Shown here piece after piece: positions 37,662 to 45,325 of a DNA stretch of 45,466 bases (positions are counted from its first letter, which is position 1; each line of letters opens with the position of its first letter). The DNA comes from Fidelibacterota bacterium. GTDB lineage: Bacteria; Pseudomonadota; Alphaproteobacteria; Rhodospirillales; Rhodospirillaceae. The notes under the pieces were generated by a model. The model was not told where the DNA came from, did not search any database, and saw nothing but the letters and a program-made list of their open reading frames with translations. A program made the translations under genes and the position numbers. The stretch is taken from assembly GCA_947476895.1 (NCBI GenBank), contig CANJRX010000016.1, positions 1 through 45,466 of the forward strand. Direction: 5' to 3'.

Positions 37662-38984
37662 TTAGGTTCCAGAGGCCTTGGCGTGGACTGCGCCAATCAA
37701 TAGCCGGCTGGGATATCCGTCGGGGACCAGGCCGTTGGCGAGCTGGAACGCCCTGATGGCCTGGCGGGTGCCGCTGCCCATGACGCCGTCGGCAGTCTTC
37801 AAAAAGCCCAAGGTCACAAGACCTTCCTGAAGACCAACGACCGCTTCACGTCGCAAAGGATCGCCCTCGCTACCCGGATTACTCAAGCCGCCGGCCCCGA
37901 TCAGCCTGTCGGCCAGATGGCCGATCGAGATCGCATAAAACGCCGAACGGTTGTATTTCAGGATGACCCGATAATTGTCATAGAGCAGCAGCGCCGGCCC
38001 GTTTCGCCCCGCCGGCAAGACGACCGAAGCTGGAATGTCCTGCGCTGGTAAAGGTTGACCATCGACACGCGTCACGCCCAAGGCCGACCACTCGGACAGG
38101 GATTTCATCGTCTCTTTGGCGTCCACATCCAGACTGACGAGCTTCAGGTCGAAATTTTTCGGCAGGCGGACTTCCCTGCCCCACGTGCGCTCGCTGTTCC
38201 ACCCCAAAGCTTTGGAGATGAAGTTGGCGCTGGATCCCAAAGCATCGGGAACGCTGCCCCAGATATCGATACGGCCATCTTTGTCTTCATCGACGGCGTA
38301 TTTGAGGAAGTTCGAGGGCATAAACTGCGTCTGGCCCATGGCCCCGGCGTAAGAGCCCTTCATTTTATCGAGCGTGATATGGCCGCGATCCAAAATGGTC
38401 AGGGCGCTGAACAACTCGTTCCTAAACATGTCGCCGCGCCGGCCTTCAAAGGCCAGCGTCGCCAAGGATTGCACGACTGAATACCCACCGGCATCGCGGC
38501 CGAAATCGCTTTCCATGCCCCAGAAGGCGACAAGGAAGCGCCCCGGTACGCCGTATTCACGTTCAAGTCTGGCCAGAAGCTCGGCGTGCTTTTCCATCAT
38601 GGCGCGGCCGTTCGCGATCCGGCGTTCCGAAGCCAGGCTGTTGAGATAGCGTGTGAAGGTATTACTGAATTCCGGCTGGCGTCCGTCCGCCTCGATGATG
38701 CGGTGATCGAGCGTCAGGGTGTTGCCCAAAGCTTGCGAAATCGTCGGCGCCGTAATGCCGCGTTTGGCGGCATCTAGTCGTGCGCCTTCAAGCCATGTCG
38801 CGAAGGCCGCGTCGGAAAGGCGGGGATCAACGGCTGCATCCGGCGGTGCGGCGGCGGGCGCTGCCTGAGCGACTTGAGCCGGTTGTTTGGGGGCTTGCGC
38901 GCTGCCTTGGCAGGCGGTCATTAGGCCCGCCAATGCCAATGTCGGTGCAATCAACCACAGTCCGCAACGTAACTTTAGCTTCAT
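37662..38984 (-). CDS. MltB-type lytic murein transglycosylase with peptidoglycan-binding domain
   Basis: The precursor (440 residues) is a lipoprotein (APTLALAGLMTAC lipobox). The catalytic part shows FLVAFWGMESDFGRDAGG, with the active-site Glu, followed by KMKGSYAGAMGQTQFMPSNF and YAVDEDKDGRIDIWGSVPDA. These are the signatures of the MltB/SltB lytic transglycosylase class. A C-terminal PG-binding_1 module ends with VMGSGTRQAIRAFQLANGLVPDGYP. It cuts peptidoglycan between MurNAc and GlcNAc to form anhydro ends. The start at 38984 is chosen by AGGG spacing of 9 nt; an ATG two codons upstream is also open. It is divergent from the cyclase operon. Confidence 0.93.
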   Translation of the reverse strand: MKLKLRCGLWLIAPTLALAGLMTACQGSAQAPKQPAQVAQAAPAAAPPDAAVDPRLSDAAFATWLEGARLDAAKRGITAPTISQALGNTLTLDHRIIEADGRQPEFSNTFTRYLNSLASERRIANGRAMMEKHAELLARLEREYGVPGRFLVAFWGMESDFGRDAGGYSVVQSLATLAFEGRRGDMFRNELFSALTILDRGHITLDKMKGSYAGAMGQTQFMPSNFLKYAVDEDKDGRIDIWGSVPDALGSSANFISKALGWNSERTWGREVRLPKNFDLKLVSLDVDAKETMKSLSEWSALGVTRVDGQPLPAQDIPASVVLPAGRNGPALLLYDNYRVILKYNRSAFYAISIGHLADRLIGAGGLSNPGSEGDPLRREAVVGLQEGLVTLGFLKTADGVMGSGTRQAIRAFQLANGLVPDGYPSRLLIGAVHAKASGT

Positions 38985-39165
38985 ATGCATGGACCCTTTG
39001 TAGACGGTGCTGCCCACGATTTCCAGCGGCTGTGTAAGGGTTTGCGGGACGCGCGCAAGAGTGGCAATGCGCTAACCTTTCGGCTAAACTTTGTTTTCAC
39101 GGGGCAATGCATCGGCCAGACATCGCGTATCAAGCGACAAGCCGATTGAGTGGGGATTACGGGAT

Positions 39166-40293
39166 ATGGCTCAAGATGAAGTCTTCAATTCGTACGCAAG
39201 TCCTGCGTCGCAAGAACTAGCCAAAGTCCCAGAGAGCGGTGGCTTCTTCACCGACTGGTTCTTCAACATGTTCGCCGGCGCGATTGATATGCAAATCCAT
39301 TCGCCGATTTTGTCGCTGGTGTACGCGGGCATCCTTCTCGGCCTCGTTATTCTGCGCCTCTACACCGAGAACCCCATCAAGTCCTTAGGGTGCGCCCTCC
39401 TCTATATCTACACCACTGTCCAAGCCTTTACGCTTTTCCGCACCTCGGGCTTCGTGCTCGACTCTACGCCGGAGGGCTGGCTGGTGACGGCCAAAGCCCT
39501 TTGGTTCGCCGCTCTGTTTACGGGCATTTGGGCGTGGGGCGTTTCGCGCCTTCTGCAATCGTTGATCGTGGCCCTGGTGCCCATGGGCTTGGGGCAACTA
39601 TTAGCGCCCATCAATCCGCTGCGGCTTTTGAATAAGATGCGCAAGAGCGATGCCGAGCTTGAAGGCATGGAGGAAGGCTCCTCTAAGAATCCCAAGCGTC
39701 AGCTGACCGCCATTATGTTCACCGACATCGTCGGATACTCGAAACAGATGGGCGCGAACGAAGCGGCCATGGTGAAGAAGCTGAACATTCACAACGAAAT
39801 CATGCGCAATCAAATCGTGCGCAACCGCGGTACGGTTATTAAGACCATCGGTGACGCCTTCATGGTGCGCTTCCGCTCGGCCGAAAACGCCGTGCAATGC
39901 GCCATGGATTGCCAAAAAGGCATCGCCGACTACAACAAAGGCAAGCCGGACAACGATCAGTTCCATATCCGCATCGGTTTGCACATGGGTGAAGTCATTC
40001 ACACCGGCACCGACGTGTTCGGCGAAGGCGTGAACATCGCCGCGCGTATCGAGCCGAAAGCCGATCCGGACGGAATTGCGGTTTCTGATGTCATTGCCAA
40101 TGCCGCGCGCAACAAAGTGCCCGCGCACTTTATGTCGATGGGCCGCTTGCCGATGAAAAACATAGCCAACCCGCCTGAGCTGTTCAAAGTGTTCCCCATC
40201 GAAGAAAACGCGACGCAGAAAGTCGCCAAACCGGGCGCTGCGGCTGCTGCCGCCCCCGCCGGCAGCGCGCCGGGCGGTGTGTTTAAGATTTGA
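39166..40293 (+). CDS. Membrane class III adenylate/guanylate cyclase
   Basis: This 375-residue protein has an N-terminal membrane region with about three helices (46-66, 72-90, 108-126) and a cytosolic class III cyclase domain from residue ~178. The metal aspartates are Asp187 (FTDIVGYS) and Asp230 (GDAFMVRF), and the transition-state pair Asn290/Arg294 lies in GVNIAARIE. A substrate-selecting lysine is in VIKTIGDAF, so cAMP is the expected product. It has an Ala/Gly-rich tail. ATG 39166 is taken because GGGGA precedes it; the frame upstream of it lacks any such site. It is first in a five-gene run in which each gene overlaps the next by 1-4 nt, so the cyclase is expressed with an ABC transporter. 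Confidence 0.92.
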   Translation: MAQDEVFNSYASPASQELAKVPESGGFFTDWFFNMFAGAIDMQIHSPILSLVYAGILLGLVILRLYTENPIKSLGCALLYIYTTVQAFTLFRTSGFVLDSTPEGWLVTAKALWFAALFTGIWAWGVSRLLQSLIVALVPMGLGQLLAPINPLRLLNKMRKSDAELEGMEEGSSKNPKRQLTAIMFTDIVGYSKQMGANEAAMVKKLNIHNEIMRNQIVRNRGTVIKTIGDAFMVRFRSAENAVQCAMDCQKGIADYNKGKPDNDQFHIRIGLHMGEVIHTGTDVFGEGVNIAARIEPKADPDGIAVSDVIANAARNKVPAHFMSMGRLPMKNIANPPELFKVFPIEENATQKVAKPGAAAAAAPAGSAPGGVFKI

Positions 40294-41276
40294 TGGTGTC
40301 GCCGCTCCTCCGCGTAGCGGCGTTCCTATCGCTTCTGCTCGCGTTCAGTACCGCACAGGCTGCCGATAAACTCACCGTCGGCACCGATTGGCGCGCTGAG
40401 GCGGAACATGGCGGCTACTATCAGGCGCTCGCGACAGGGCTTTATGCCAAGGCCGGATTAGACGTCACGATCCGCCAAGGCGGGCCGCAGGTAAATCATT
40501 CGCAGCTTCTGGCCGCCGGCAAGCTCGACATCAGCATTGCGCCGAACTCGTTCATTCCGCTGAACTTCGTCGAGCAGAAAGTTCCCGTGGTCGCGGTCGC
40601 CAGTATGTTTCAAAAAGATCCGGCGGTGCTGATCGCGCATCCGGGCCAGGGCAACGACACGCTCGCCGCCCTCAAGGGCAAAAAAATCATGATCTCGCCG
40701 GATACCCGTATTGGGTTTTGGCGCTTCCTGAAATCCAGTTATGGATTCACCGACGATCAGATCGCGCCGTATACGTTCAACCTGGCGCCGTTCCTCGCCG
40801 ATCCTAAATCCATTCAGCAAGGCTACATCACCAGCGAGCCGTTTCAGATCGAACGTGTCGGCATAAAGCCCGTAGTGATGCTGCTCTCGGACGCTGGATA
40901 TACGAGCTACGCGTCGCTGGTGGTCGTGCCACGCAAAATGGCGCTAGAGCGTCGCGAACTTGTGCAGCGCTTCGTTGACGCCACTATCCTCGGCTGGGCG
41001 AGCTATTTGAACGGCGATCCGACGCCGGCCAATGCGCTGATCAAACGCGACAACCCCGATATGACCGATGAATTGCTGGCTTACGGCCGCGACAAGCTGA
41101 AAACCTACGGCATCATTGAATCCGGCGCCGCGACGTCACGCGGGATCGGCGCTATGGACGACGCGCGCTGGAAAGCCTTTTTTGATGTCATGGCCGCCGA
41201 CGGCCTCTATCCCAAAGACATGGATTATCGCCAAGCCTATACGGTCGACTTTGTCGGCAAGGGTGTAGGGCGTTGA
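40293..41276 (+). CDS. ABC transporter substrate-binding protein, NMT1/THI5 or NitT/TauT type
   Basis: The precursor (327 residues) has a signal peptide (AAFLSLLLAFSTAQA) and then the family layout: LTVGTDWRAEAEHGGYYQAL, AKAGLDVTIRQGGPQVN and LLAAGKLDISIA. The binding family covers hydroxymethylpyrimidine/thiamine precursors, sulfonates, nitrate and aromatic acids. The GTDWRAEAEHGG and EQKVPVVAVASMFQKDP stretches are closest to the pyrimidine/NMT1 branch, but the cargo cannot be fixed. The ATG overlaps the cyclase stop by one base. Confidence 0.9.
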   Translation: MVSPLLRVAAFLSLLLAFSTAQAADKLTVGTDWRAEAEHGGYYQALATGLYAKAGLDVTIRQGGPQVNHSQLLAAGKLDISIAPNSFIPLNFVEQKVPVVAVASMFQKDPAVLIAHPGQGNDTLAALKGKKIMISPDTRIGFWRFLKSSYGFTDDQIAPYTFNLAPFLADPKSIQQGYITSEPFQIERVGIKPVVMLLSDAGYTSYASLVVVPRKMALERRELVQRFVDATILGWASYLNGDPTPANALIKRDNPDMTDELLAYGRDKLKTYGIIESGAATSRGIGAMDDARWKAFFDVMAADGLYPKDMDYRQAYTVDFVGKGVGR

Positions 41277-42049
41277 GCGGAGAAGACGCTCCACCCGCCG
41301 TAGCGCTCCGTGCGGTGAGCAAAACATTTCCGAACGGCACGACGGCCCTCAGTTCTATCGATCTCACGATTTCCGCTGGCAGTTTTACCAGCCTCGTCGG
41401 ACCTTCGGGGTGCGGCAAGTCGACACTGCTGAGGGTGATCGCCGGATTGATACCGCCAACTGCCGGCACTGTTGCCTGGAGCAAAGCAGCGCGTTCGCTT
41501 TCGATGGGGTTTGTTTTTCAGGATGCGACCCTGATGCCATGGGCCACCGCCGCCGAAAATGTGGCTCTGCCCTTACGCTTGGCCAATCTGCCGGAGTCCG
41601 ACATCACCGCGCGCGTCAGCGAAGCCCTTGAGCGTGTTGGGTTGGCGGACTTTACCCAGGCCTATCCGCGTGAATTGTCGGGCGGCATGAAGATGCGCGT
41701 TTCCATTGCGCGCGCGACTGTGACAGGTCCCGAACTTCTTTTGATGGATGAGCCCTTCGCCGCGCTGGACGAATTCACGCGCTTCAAACTGAACGAAGAC
41801 CTGCTGGCACTATGGCAACGCAACCGCTGGACGGTCGCGTTCGTCACGCACTCCATCCGCGAGGCGGTGTTTTTATCCGAGCGCGTTGTGGTGATGTCGC
41901 CGCACCCCGGTCGCATTGTTGCAGACCTGGCAGTTGCCTTACCCGGTCAACGCGATGCTGCTTTGCGCCTCGGCCACGCCTTCGCTGACGAATGCGCCCG
42001 CGTAACGCAAAGCCTGGGCGATGCTTTTTCACAGCGGGCTGCATCATGA
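41273..42049 (+). CDS. ABC transporter ATP-binding protein, NitT/TauT type
   Basis: The protein (258 residues) shows Walker A GPSGCGKST, Q-loop FVFQDATLMPW, signature LSGGMKMR, Walker B LLLMDEPFAALDE and the H-loop TH in VTHSIREAV. The Gly-Met-Lys after LSGG replaces the usual Gln, as in many members of this subfamily. The start TTG overlaps the stop of the binding-protein gene by 4 nt, supported by AGGG. It pairs with the permease for import across the inner membrane. Confidence 0.94.
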   Translation: MSGEDAPPAVALRAVSKTFPNGTTALSSIDLTISAGSFTSLVGPSGCGKSTLLRVIAGLIPPTAGTVAWSKAARSLSMGFVFQDATLMPWATAAENVALPLRLANLPESDITARVSEALERVGLADFTQAYPRELSGGMKMRVSIARATVTGPELLLMDEPFAALDEFTRFKLNEDLLALWQRNRWTVAFVTHSIREAVFLSERVVVMSPHPGRIVADLAVALPGQRDAALRLGHAFADECARVTQSLGDAFSQRAAS

Positions 42050-42840
42050 ACGGCCTGAAGAAACTCAGCCGTGCGATCCTTCCGCTCATGTTCGGGATAG
42101 CGGTGTTGGGCGTTTGGGAAGTCTTGGTGCGAGTCTATGACGTGCCGCCCTATGTCCTGCCCGGACCTTCGGCCATCGTCTTGGCACTTTGGCAAAGTGG
42201 CGGCGAGCTCCTTCAGGCTTTGCTGGTGACGCTCGAGGTCACGATCGCCGCACTTGTGCTCGCGGCCATCACCGGTGCGGGCATTGCGTTTCTGTTGGCG
42301 CAATCGAAGCTCGCCGAGAAAACTTTATTTCCCTACGCCGTGTTTCTACAGGTCACGCCGATCGTCACCATCGCGCCCTTTATCATTATCTGGGTTGATA
42401 ACACTTACATCGTGTTGCTGATCCTGGCCTGGATCGCGGCGGTCTTTCCCATCATCTCCAACACGCTGCTTGGCCTTAAAAGCGCCGATGCCAATTTGCG
42501 TGAATTATTCCGCCTTTATGGCGCCAGCCGCGGGCAGACTTTGCTGCGGCTTCTCGCACCCAGCGCCCTGCCCTATTTCCTGGGTGGATTGCGGATCAGC
42601 GGCGGCCTCGCTCTCATAGGAACAGTGGTTGCTGAAATGGTCGCGGGAACGTCGGGCACACGCTCAGGGTTAGCGTCGCGTCTGCTAGAAGCCAGCTACC
42701 GGCTGGAACTCGCCCGGGCGCTCGCGTGTTTTGCGCTGTTGAGCGCAGCGGGATTTGCGCTTTATATTTCCCTCGACGCTCTTTCGCGACGTCTTTTGCG
42801 TCATTGGCACGAAAGTGCGAGCACGCTGGAAACCGAATGA
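42046..42840 (+). CDS. ABC transporter permease, NitT/TauT type
   Basis: The protein (264 residues) has about six membrane helices with the family's cytoplasmic EAA-type loop (ELFRLYGASRGQTLLRLLAPSALPYFLGGLR, quoted in parts: ELFRLYGASRG, LAPSALPYFLGG). The N-terminal LPGPSAIVLALWQSGGELL is characteristic of SsuC/TauC-like permeases. The start at 42046 is the ATG that overlaps the ATPase stop by 4 nt; the frame extends upstream to 41992 without support. It overlaps the FkbM gene by 4 nt. Confidence 0.93.
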   Translation: MNGLKKLSRAILPLMFGIAVLGVWEVLVRVYDVPPYVLPGPSAIVLALWQSGGELLQALLVTLEVTIAALVLAAITGAGIAFLLAQSKLAEKTLFPYAVFLQVTPIVTIAPFIIIWVDNTYIVLLILAWIAAVFPIISNTLLGLKSADANLRELFRLYGASRGQTLLRLLAPSALPYFLGGLRISGGLALIGTVVAEMVAGTSGTRSGLASRLLEASYRLELARALACFALLSAAGFALYISLDALSRRLLRHWHESASTLETE

Positions 42841-43589
42841 CGCAGCCGCCCGATCAGAACACGCTTTTCCCGCGCGATACGCTGATCACACCGCTGATTA
42901 TGATGGTGAACAACGGCGTGCCGGTGTCGACTTTCATCGACATCGGCGCTGCGGACGGTACCTTCGGCCTCTCGGTGCTGGATGCCATCAGTCCCTCGCT
43001 CCACCTTCTCAACATCGACGCTCAGGAAACCTATCGCCCCAGCCTCGCGCGCATTGAAGCGATGTTAGGCGAACCCTATCGGATTACAGCGGTGGGAGAG
43101 CAGGATGGCGTCATCCGCGTCAACGCTCCGCAACATGAGTATTGGCTTTCGACCGCCCAGCACATGAACAGTGCGAATGCGCAGATTGAGTTGCCGTGCC
43201 GCAAGCTCGACAGCATTTGCGCTGAGATCGCCTTGAAGGGCCCTGCCTTCATTAAGCTGGATGTCGAAGGCGCCGAGATGAGCGCTTTGCGCGGGGCGGA
43301 GGAAACACTTGCTGATACATGCGGCCTGCTGATCGAAAGCCCCGTGCGTAGCGCGCCCGGCCCGCAATTTTTAGAGATTTATACTTTCTTGGCGGCGCGC
43401 GATTTTTCGCTGTTCGACATCGTGCGGATGTCGCATCGCGGCACCGATTCAACGCTTTATCAGTTTTATTCCGTCTTTATCGCCAACCGAGCGGCAAACA
43501 AGGTTTGCGCTCGAAGACTCAGCAGGCCGAAGTACTCGCCGCGGTATCCGATCGCCGCGACCAGCTCCGCACTGAGAACACGCTTCTGA
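42837..43589 (+). CDS. FkbM-family methyltransferase, likely frameshifted near the 3' end
   Basis: The protein is read as 250 residues. The SAM-binding loop FIDIGAADGTFG (about 33-44) and the family core FIKLDVEGAEMSALRGAEE (about 144-162) are intact. From ~residue 220 the reading becomes a poor Arg/Ser-rich tail (CARRLSRPKYSPRYP). A different frame over the same bases reads GLRSKTQQAEVLAAVSDRRD and then a charged coiled tail to a TAA at 43631-43633. A one-base deletion near AACAAGG (43498-43503) would explain the switch. It is the last gene of the cyclase-ABC run (ATGA overlap). FkbM enzymes O-methylate small molecules; the substrate may be linked to the transported compound. Confidence 0.85.
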   Translation: MTQPPDQNTLFPRDTLITPLIMMVNNGVPVSTFIDIGAADGTFGLSVLDAISPSLHLLNIDAQETYRPSLARIEAMLGEPYRITAVGEQDGVIRVNAPQHEYWLSTAQHMNSANAQIELPCRKLDSICAEIALKGPAFIKLDVEGAEMSALRGAEETLADTCGLLIESPVRSAPGPQFLEIYTFLAARDFSLFDIVRMSHRGTDSTLYQFYSVFIANRAANKVCARRLSRPKYSPRYPIAATSSALRTRF

Positions 43590-43636
43590 TGTCGTCGATC
43601 AAGCTCAAGCGTTCGATGATACCCCGCGCCTAATCG

Positions 43637-44743
43637 CTACTCGGCCGCCTCGCGTGCGCGTTCAGGATATAAGCCAATCAATCCCTCACGGGTGGCTTTG
43701 CAGACTCCACGCTCGGTAATCAAGCCGGTGACGTAGCGCGCCGGAGTCACATCAAACGCGACGTTCAGCGCAGGACTGCCATCCGGAATAAGTTGAACGG
43801 TTTCGATCTTGCCGGCGGCGTTGCGGCCAGAGATGTGGCTGAGTTCGCGTGCGTCGCGCTCTTCGATGGGAATATCGCTGCCGTTTTTGAGCGTCCAGTC
43901 GATGGTTGTCGACGGCAAGGCCACATAAAACGGCACGCCATTATCGTGCGCAGCCAATGCCTTCAAATACGTTCCAACTTTATTGCAGACATCGCCATGA
44001 GCCGTGGTGCGGTCGCTGCCCACAATCGCCATTTGAACGCGGTCATGTTGCATAAGATGACCGCCGGTGTTGTCGGCGATCACGGTATGCGGCACGCCGT
44101 GCGCGCGCAGTTCAAAGGCCGTGAGAGATGCGCCCTGGTTGCGCGGCCGCGTTTCATCCACCCACACATGCACGGGTATTCCGGCGTCATGTGCCTTGTA
44201 GATAGGTGCCAGCGCGGTACCCCAATCGACGCAGGCGAGCCAACCCGCATTACAGTGAGTCAGCACATTGAATCGCGCAGGTTCCCCACTAGATTTCCAC
44301 AGACGTGTTATGATGTCGCATCCGCTCTCGCCGATCGCTTGGCATTGAGCGACATCGTCTTCGCAAATTTGCGCCGCGCGCGCATAGGCTGCGGCCACCC
44401 GATCCCCTGGGCTTAGGGGCGCCAAATATTGCTGCATTTCGTTTACGGCCCACGCCAGGTTTACGGCCGTGGGGCGAGCTGCTTTAAGAAGCCCAAGAGA
44501 TTGAGTTAAATGAGTATCCGACTTATCGAACTTCATCGCCAAGGCGACGCCGTAGGCGGCGGTCGCTCCAATGAGGGGCGCGCCCCGCACAGTCATGTCA
44601 CGAATAGCCTGGGCCGCATCTTCAACGGTTTTGAGGCTTACGACAGCAAACTCGAACGGCAGCCGCGTCTGATCGATGACCTGCACCGTCCAGCCGTCGT
44701 CTGCCAACCAAATCGTTCGATACCAGCGTCCGTCAATTTTCAT
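43637..44743 (-). CDS. mtnA: S-methyl-5-thioribose-1-phosphate isomerase
   Basis: The protein (368 residues) converts MTR-1-P to MTRu-1-P in the methionine salvage pathway. It contains the family motifs MTVRGAPLIGATAAYG and LTHCNAGWLA with the catalytic Cys164, and AIVGSDRTTAHGDVCNKVGT with Asp244. C-terminal PALNVAFDVTPARYVTGLITERG matches MtnA and the related eIF2B-like fold. No mtnB/mtnD or mtnK is nearby in the window. It is convergent with the FkbM gene (its stop lies near 43637, just after the frameshifted tail) and divergent from the IclR gene. Confidence 0.94.
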   Translation of the reverse strand: MKIDGRWYRTIWLADDGWTVQVIDQTRLPFEFAVVSLKTVEDAAQAIRDMTVRGAPLIGATAAYGVALAMKFDKSDTHLTQSLGLLKAARPTAVNLAWAVNEMQQYLAPLSPGDRVAAAYARAAQICEDDVAQCQAIGESGCDIITRLWKSSGEPARFNVLTHCNAGWLACVDWGTALAPIYKAHDAGIPVHVWVDETRPRNQGASLTAFELRAHGVPHTVIADNTGGHLMQHDRVQMAIVGSDRTTAHGDVCNKVGTYLKALAAHDNGVPFYVALPSTTIDWTLKNGSDIPIEERDARELSHISGRNAAGKIETVQLIPDGSPALNVAFDVTPARYVTGLITERGVCKATREGLIGLYPERAREAAE

Positions 44744-44938: not shown

Positions 44939-45325
44939 ATGAACGACTCCGTCGTGAAGTCGGTCGGCCGTGTGTTTGAAGTGTTAGAGTTGTTCGACAC
45001 CGAACGTACGGCGCTTTCCGCGACCAATATAGCGCGTACTTTGAAGTATCCAGCGTCGAGCACGGTGGCTTTGTTAAAAAGCGTGGTGCATCTGGGTTAC
45101 CTTACTTACGATCATACAGAACGCATGTATTTTCCGACCGTACGCCTCGCGGTCATTAGTCATTGGCTCGAGAATTCCTTCTTCTTTGAAGGGCACTTGC
45201 TAGAGTTGATGGATGAGATTAGCACCGCTACCGATGAGAGTACTTTCCTAAGTTGGCAGTCCGATCTCGAAATTCAGTACGTGCAATTCCGGATCGGATC
45301 CCACGGAATGGCCCCGTCACCCTGA
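44939..45325 (+). pseudogene. IclR-family transcriptional regulator, truncated by an insertion sequence
   Basis: The start at ATG 44939 gives an N-terminal winged helix-turn-helix (SVGRVFEVLELFDTERTALSATNIARTL, quoted in parts: SVGRVFEVLELF, LSATNIARTL) followed by PASSTVALLKSVVHLGYL and YFPTVRLAVISHW. IclR proteins are normally ~250 residues with a ligand-binding domain. This frame ends after ~128 residues at TGA 45323-45325. The last residues (FRIGSHGMAPSP) look unlike IclR and probably come from the IS end. The ligand-binding half is thus lost or separated. It was likely the regulator of divergent mtnA, or of other genes now interrupted. Confidence 0.75.

Follow-up and report, generated by a model that had tools for sequence, protein, structure and literature searches.

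The 45,466-nucleotide (nt) stretch considered here (the window) spans positions 1 to 45,466 of contig CANJRX010000016.1 (assembly GCA_947476895.1), from an alphaproteobacterium of the family Rhodospirillaceae. Its forward strand carries an operon of five genes: a membrane-anchored class III adenylyl cyclase (39166..40293; 375 amino acids), an NMT1/THI5-type periplasmic binding protein (40293..41276; 327 amino acids), the ATPase (41273..42049; 258 amino acids) and permease (42046..42840; 264 amino acids) of an ATP-binding cassette (ABC) transporter, and an FkbM-family methyltransferase (42837..43589; 250 amino acids). The initial annotation described five genes in this order overlapping by 1-4 nt, and both the domains and the overlaps (1, 4, 4, and 4 nt in order, with the starts as used) are confirmed. 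The cyclase-importer order is conserved across several genera within one clade; because it recurs in these relatives, the five-gene order is not a product of chance. Judged from the comparisons given below, the cyclase is best described as accessory, under selection yet dispensable, and the methyltransferase as independent.

The binding protein (PF09084 NMT1, E 2.8e-25; signal peptide recognized by eye), the ATPase (PF00005), and the permease (PF00528), encoded together in one operon, constitute an ABC importer of the NMT1/THI5 class. The methyltransferase matches TIGR01444 (58.8 versus 37.7 bits) and PF05050 (E 6.7e-13; 49.5 versus 22.7 bits) above the family cut-offs; no solved relative of it was found by sequence. 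Its C-terminus is unlike that of its orthologues: in the alignment its frame departs from those of 11 relatives after about residue 218, and the last 40 or so residues of the relatives match the window's other frame, which ends at 43633. The window gene thus carries a frameshift, either real or an assembly error. The operon end of 43633 given in the initial annotation agrees with the frame of the relatives, whereas the window's own open frame stops at 43589.

The cyclase scores 72.8 bits against PF00211 (Guanylate_cyc; E 3.5e-20), for which the gathering score is 21.9, placing it in class III, and its catalytic domain matches the solved structure 3mr7. Alignment of 21 of the 22 full-length copies, combined with hydropathy, defines a hydrophobic N-terminal domain (about residues 25-150), a catalytic domain (residues 181-331), a variable Ala/Pro/Gly linker, and a C-terminal tail, GGVFKI; the 19-residue windows above the hydropathy threshold begin at residues 42-50 and 120-134. 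The protein carries the residues expected for catalysis in F-T-D, K-T-I-G-D, D-V-F-G, and V-N-I-A-A-R; these presumably include the two metal-binding aspartates, the substrate lysine and aspartate, and the transition-state asparagine and arginine. Among the 21 aligned copies (L numbers denote loci and G numbers genomes), the motifs deviate to D-A-F-G in L076 and to M-T-D in L082, L088, and L199; the full-length cyclase of L082 (G242) also has serine in place of the transition-state asparagine and may be inactive.

Selection on the cyclase is evident from pairs in which both copies are full length. In several pairs the synonymous sites approach saturation; in the unsaturated pairs, eight of nine, the ratio of nonsynonymous to synonymous substitution rates (dN/dS) of the catalytic domain is 0.00-0.10, and in all eight it is lower than that of the membrane domain. 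Because full-length copies are so strongly constrained, the cyclase matters where it is retained. The tail is a further conserved element: the codons for its last five residues, G-V-F-K-I, lie at 40276..40290 on the forward strand, directly 5' of the stop codon that overlaps the binding-protein start. The consensus is G-x-[V/T]-F-K-[I/L], a few copies having N or G ahead of V/T, and it is retained despite variation of the linker in both length and letters, while its codons change synonymously. The deleted cyclases of G235, G202, G243, and G248 still have the tail, as does the interrupted cyclase of G183; the back-translated pattern has no match in the window's own genome besides 40276-40290. 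Either retention as a docking peptide or selection for translation to continue into the start of the binding-protein gene would account for this conservation.

The distribution of the cyclase is narrow. Across 199 genomes of the window's order, the binding protein (E<=1e-90) is found in nine, four of which have the cyclase beside it in the stretches that were fetched; the cyclase membrane domain is likewise found in only four of the 199, and in both cases all four belong to the window's family, the membrane-domain count including its own genome. Within the family the cyclase (E<=1e-40) occurs in 28 of 73 genomes, and a search of 384 other genomes of the class recovered no full cyclase (E<=1e-60), with at most five candidates scored per genome, so that a copy could have been missed. 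Permease orthologues, all without stops, occur in 34 of the 73 genomes, and G228 and G237, which have the cyclase and no permease match, yet carry the binding protein and a partial ATPase up to the contig end; adding these two gives an importer in at least 36 genomes. Binding-protein and ATPase frames are long and open wherever the contig covers them.

Almost all of the family cyclases (26 of 28) directly precede the binding-protein gene, with gaps of -4 to +46 nt in 24 of these. In G236 (L095, 963-3035) the two genes lie in one open frame with the tail sequence FKL at the junction, and in G231 the junction is hidden by a contig break. In G233 (L072, 4141-6564) a reverse-strand gene of 807 codons, which by eye resembles a penicillin-acylase-type hydrolase, splits the pair, and the cyclase is still full length. 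The initial annotation had singled out absence of the cyclase or FkbM gene beside this transporter in all relatives as the result that would undo its proposal; the relatives instead show the cyclase conserved at the head of the importer operon in several genera and, in some, FkbM at its end.

The importer also persists where the cyclase has decayed. The cyclase can be assessed in 32 importer loci, which are the 36 importer genomes minus G225 and G240, where it is cut by the contig end and open as far as visible, and minus G234 and G205, where its region is not visible. A full-length open cyclase is present in 22 of the 32 and is damaged or absent in the other 10. The membrane domain is deleted in frame in G235, in which the catalytic domain is still 90-92% identical to that of the window; the membrane domain and half of the catalytic domain are gone in G202, and most of the catalytic domain is gone in G243. 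Two stops interrupt the cyclase of G183, which a short gap alone separates from a binding-protein gene that is still open. G248 retains a C-terminal fragment, G246 and G209 a short remnant, and G244, G245, and G201 no trace. The three distinct internal deletions (in genomes G235, G202, and G243; seen among loci L069, L085, and L100) in every case leave the reading frame intact, along with the 3' end that adjoins the start of the binding-protein gene. Damaged loci are scattered over several places in the tree built from the three importer proteins, some branches of which are weak (support 35-67); the simplest reading is one gain of the cyclase followed by several losses. Any single case of decay may be an assembly error because the genomes are mostly draft assemblies.

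FkbM follows a pattern of its own. The gene occurs at 12 of 33 importer loci with a visible downstream side (the 34 permease loci without G202, which is cut at the permease; G236 shows only 338 nt downstream) and absent from 21. In the 29 genomes scored for both genes, nine have the cyclase and FkbM, 11 a full-length cyclase only, one FkbM with a damaged cyclase, and eight neither (G202, G205, G225, G228, G234, G237, and G240, with one side cut or unseen, are left out); the two genes therefore vary independently. In L087 and L101 the slot of FkbM behind the permease is occupied by a polysaccharide-pyruvyl-transferase-like gene that scores below the cut-off, and one of 36 downstream proteins scanned matches TylF, which is read as the occupant of the same slot at L102. 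These occupants hint at sugar or glycan tailoring rather than at work on import; the likeliest target of FkbM is a sugar or glycan and not the imported compound, to which nothing was found to link the enzyme. Only at L089 and L093 is FkbM followed by a taurine-dioxygenase-like gene, the L089 copy of which scores below the NCBIfam cut-off.

The genes around the operon are also shared within the family. The block consists of divergent rlpA and mltB, then the cyclase, binding protein, ATPase, and permease, with or without FkbM, and finally convergent mtnA and mtnP; between the permease and mtnA there is often an aldolase gene, either class II or an aldolase-dehydrogenase. In the window the MltB-type lytic transglycosylase (37662..38990, reverse strand; PF13406) and the methylthioribose-1-phosphate isomerase MtnA (43637..44743, reverse strand; TIGR00512) flank the operon and lie outside it, the former in the same position in relatives and the latter on the same side in many of them. 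L070, L074, L079, L094, and other loci have mtnA beside mtnP and a class II aldolase or bifunctional aldolase-dehydrogenase, a salvage cluster resembling the dihydroxyacetone phosphate (DHAP) shunt; the aldolase-dehydrogenase and MtnP pass a named cut-off, and the small aldolase falls below all of the cut-offs shown. Beyond mtnA the window has a short open reading frame (ORF) for an IclR-type regulator (44939-45325; 128 amino acids), followed from 45388 to the window end by what resembles the start of an insertion-sequence transposase. Promoter and terminator scans gave no signal above that of shuffled sequences.

More distant relatives give some indication of what the importer carries. A profile search with the binding protein recovered at least 591 encoded relatives in named genomes, which among the matches listed are mostly from Alphaproteobacteria, with some from cyanobacteria and a few from other groups. 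Of the 80 kept, seven (L108-L112, L116, and L118) have mltB/rlpA or cyclase neighbours like those of the window's family. At the other 73 loci, all outside the family, neither a cyclase beside the importer nor FkbM (E<=1e-8) was found, an absence that is incomplete at some loci because their flanks are short; at one of them, L120, a 27% match to the cyclase lies some 5 kb downstream. This counts against the five genes forming a single unit. Solved relatives of the binding protein by profile are 4nmy (a thiamin-bound protein), 3ix1 (formyl-aminopyrimidine-binding protein), and THI5 or THI13. An amidohydrolase lies directly downstream of the importer in nine of the 36 scanned neighbours (34 hand-chosen from 52 listed downstream ORFs, plus those of L102 and L087), and the only amidohydrolase tested passes the PRK07583 cytosine deaminase cut-off. 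Some distant relatives carry a creatininase-like gene upstream, of which the one tested is below the cut-offs. The solved relatives and amidohydrolase neighbours point to a pyrimidine-like heterocycle, and the ligand is probably a small nitrogen heterocycle of this kind.

Two more specific assignments were considered and rejected. The importer could be a thiamin-precursor (ThiXYZ) system; no thiamine pyrophosphate (TPP) element reaches the gathering score in the window or in the 15 relative importer loci scanned, whereas thiC of the same genome has a TPP riboswitch, a difference that weakens the assignment. Of nine family genomes lacking ThiC, seven (G202-G205, G188, G240, and G241) have the importer, against 27 of the 64 that have ThiC (Fisher p 0.07); these seven come from two genera and, as five of them form one clade in the importer tree (support 89), the weak association with ThiC loss may reflect one event. 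A sulfonate or taurine importer is argued against by a score far below the SsuA model cut-off and by the restriction of the taurine-dioxygenase-like gene to the two loci named above.

The explanation we favor, with moderate confidence, is that the operon encodes an ordinary NMT1/THI5 importer with an accessory, co-expressed cyclase that feeds cyclic adenosine monophosphate (cAMP) to CRP-type receptors, FkbM being unrelated cargo. The stable core would be the importer of a heterocycle; the ancestor of one alphaproteobacterial clade would have gained the membrane-anchored cyclase as first gene, and part of the clade FkbM as last gene. The full-length cyclase is most likely active and would make cAMP in step with importer expression. 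This cAMP would be read by CRP-type receptors encoded elsewhere. The membrane domain of the cyclase, which evolves faster, may respond to an external or membrane cue; the enzyme would be an optional modulator, outside transport itself. The window's genome has eight cNMP-binding-domain matches, some adjacent on one contig, and three further class III cyclases; because the operon cyclase is one of four, any effect of its cAMP would be shared.

Several observations weigh against this explanation. CRP-like sites number nine in the window versus 12 expected by chance, and none precedes the cyclase; one falls inside the cyclase gene. The ligand class is drawn from distant relatives rather than from the window's own clade, and the riboswitch difference weakens the case for a thiamin precursor. 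Finally, so strongly constrained a catalytic domain may indicate a tighter role for the cyclase than an optional one.

The cyclase may instead be a mere positional neighbour, caught between mltB and the importer, using or sharing a promoter and functionally unconnected with import, its overlap with the binding-protein start serving translational coupling only. A single origin, as the simplest reading of the tree, and repeated decay would suit such a history, and the internal deletions in G235, G202, and G243 preserve what coupling would favor, the frame and the 3' end. Strict translational coupling is nevertheless argued against by G183, whose cyclase has two stops ahead of an open binding-protein frame, and adjacency has been maintained across several genera; the separated pair of G233, with its cyclase still full length, fits either view. 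This alternative seems unlikely, but it is the strongest rival.

Less probable is a dedicated transport-sensing unit, in which the membrane domain senses importer occupancy or ligand, the FKI tail docks to the importer or a binding partner, and cAMP reports arrival of the substrate. The position of 26 of 28 cyclases immediately before the binding protein would be expected of such a unit, as would a lineage-specific, faster-evolving membrane domain next to a very constrained catalytic domain and a tail that stays conserved beyond a variable linker while its codons change synonymously; a receptor role has been proposed for the membrane anchors of class III cyclases (PMC4821796). Against it, at 10 of the 32 loci that can be assessed the importer survives although its cyclase is damaged, reduced to a remnant, or missing, G235 has lost the membrane domain in frame while keeping a catalytic domain so close to that of the window, and a single acquisition means that the pairing never arose again independently. 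A clade-specific complex, in which the membrane domain reads the state of transport, the tail docks to the importer or a partner, and cAMP reports flux, is slightly more doubtful again.

The neighbouring salvage genes suggest another alternative, that 5'-methylthioadenosine, or else a related 5'-deoxynucleoside or sugar, is imported to supply mtnA/mtnP/aldolase salvage under cAMP control, as in E. coli. These genes stand convergent beside the importer in many family loci, and the E. coli DHAP shunt operon, according to PMC12632272, includes a putative transporter and is under CRP control. However, mtnA is nearly as common without the importer as with it (26 of 39 genomes without a permease match, two of which carry the binding protein, versus 27 of 34 with one), G183 and G245, which are 98-100% complete, carry the importer with no mtnA match, the salvage genes lie on the opposite strand, and distant importer relatives often adjoin amidohydrolases instead. 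This alternative is improbable. The unit first proposed for these genes, in which a compound is sensed, imported, and methylated by FkbM while cAMP serves as the report, draws on the permease-FkbM overlap in the window and on the 12 of 33 loci with FkbM in this slot, and is very improbable and unsupported given a cyclase damaged or absent in 10 of 32 loci, FkbM absent from 21 of 33, 11 of 29 scorable genomes with a full-length cyclase and no FkbM, and the different slot occupants of L087, L101, and L102.

Within the open-licence PubMed Central (PMC) literature, no published description was found of an operon of adenylate cyclase, ABC transporter, and NMT1 or periplasmic binding protein, nor any uniting an FkbM methyltransferase, ABC transporter, and substrate-binding protein; the papers there that combine class III adenylyl cyclases, ABC transporters, and operons appear to describe no such operon. 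The kind of importer is known; the accessory cyclase heading its operon is confined to this lineage. Which signals reach bacterial class III cyclases through their membrane domains is treated as an open question in PMC4821796. In the window's family the cyclase is genetically linked to a single importer, and in-frame deletions have arisen naturally that remove the membrane domain (G235) or the catalytic domain (G243); because the family holds these losses, sensing by the membrane domain can be tested by comparison. Sensing by the cyclase or its docking to the importer could yet prove correct and is testable; if the link is only positional, the locus is a clear example of operon order that resembles a system without being one.

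Compared with known systems, the importer shares with the ThiXYZ, SsuABC, and TauABC families its class of binding protein, ATPase, and permease and the profile matches to 3ix1 and THI5; it differs in that its proteins fall below the NCBIfam importer cut-offs shown (for the ATPase, the best 25 of 187) in having a cyclase at the head of the operon and, from ThiXYZ, in lacking a TPP riboswitch. The methyltransferase is like other members of the FkbM family (TIGR01444) in its domain and differs in its place as last gene of an importer operon. The E. coli DHAP shunt operon (PMC12632272) similarly associates mtnA with an aldolase, a transporter, and cAMP within a single neighbourhood, but in the window the salvage genes are convergent and outside the operon. 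The closest parallel for the cyclase is the Rv1625c type of membrane class III enzyme, in which, according to PMC4821796, the membrane domain likewise diverges faster than the catalytic domain; the window cyclase has two hydrophobic segments over threshold (perhaps three or four by eye) rather than six, and is set apart by its C-terminal FKI tail and its genetic linkage to an importer.

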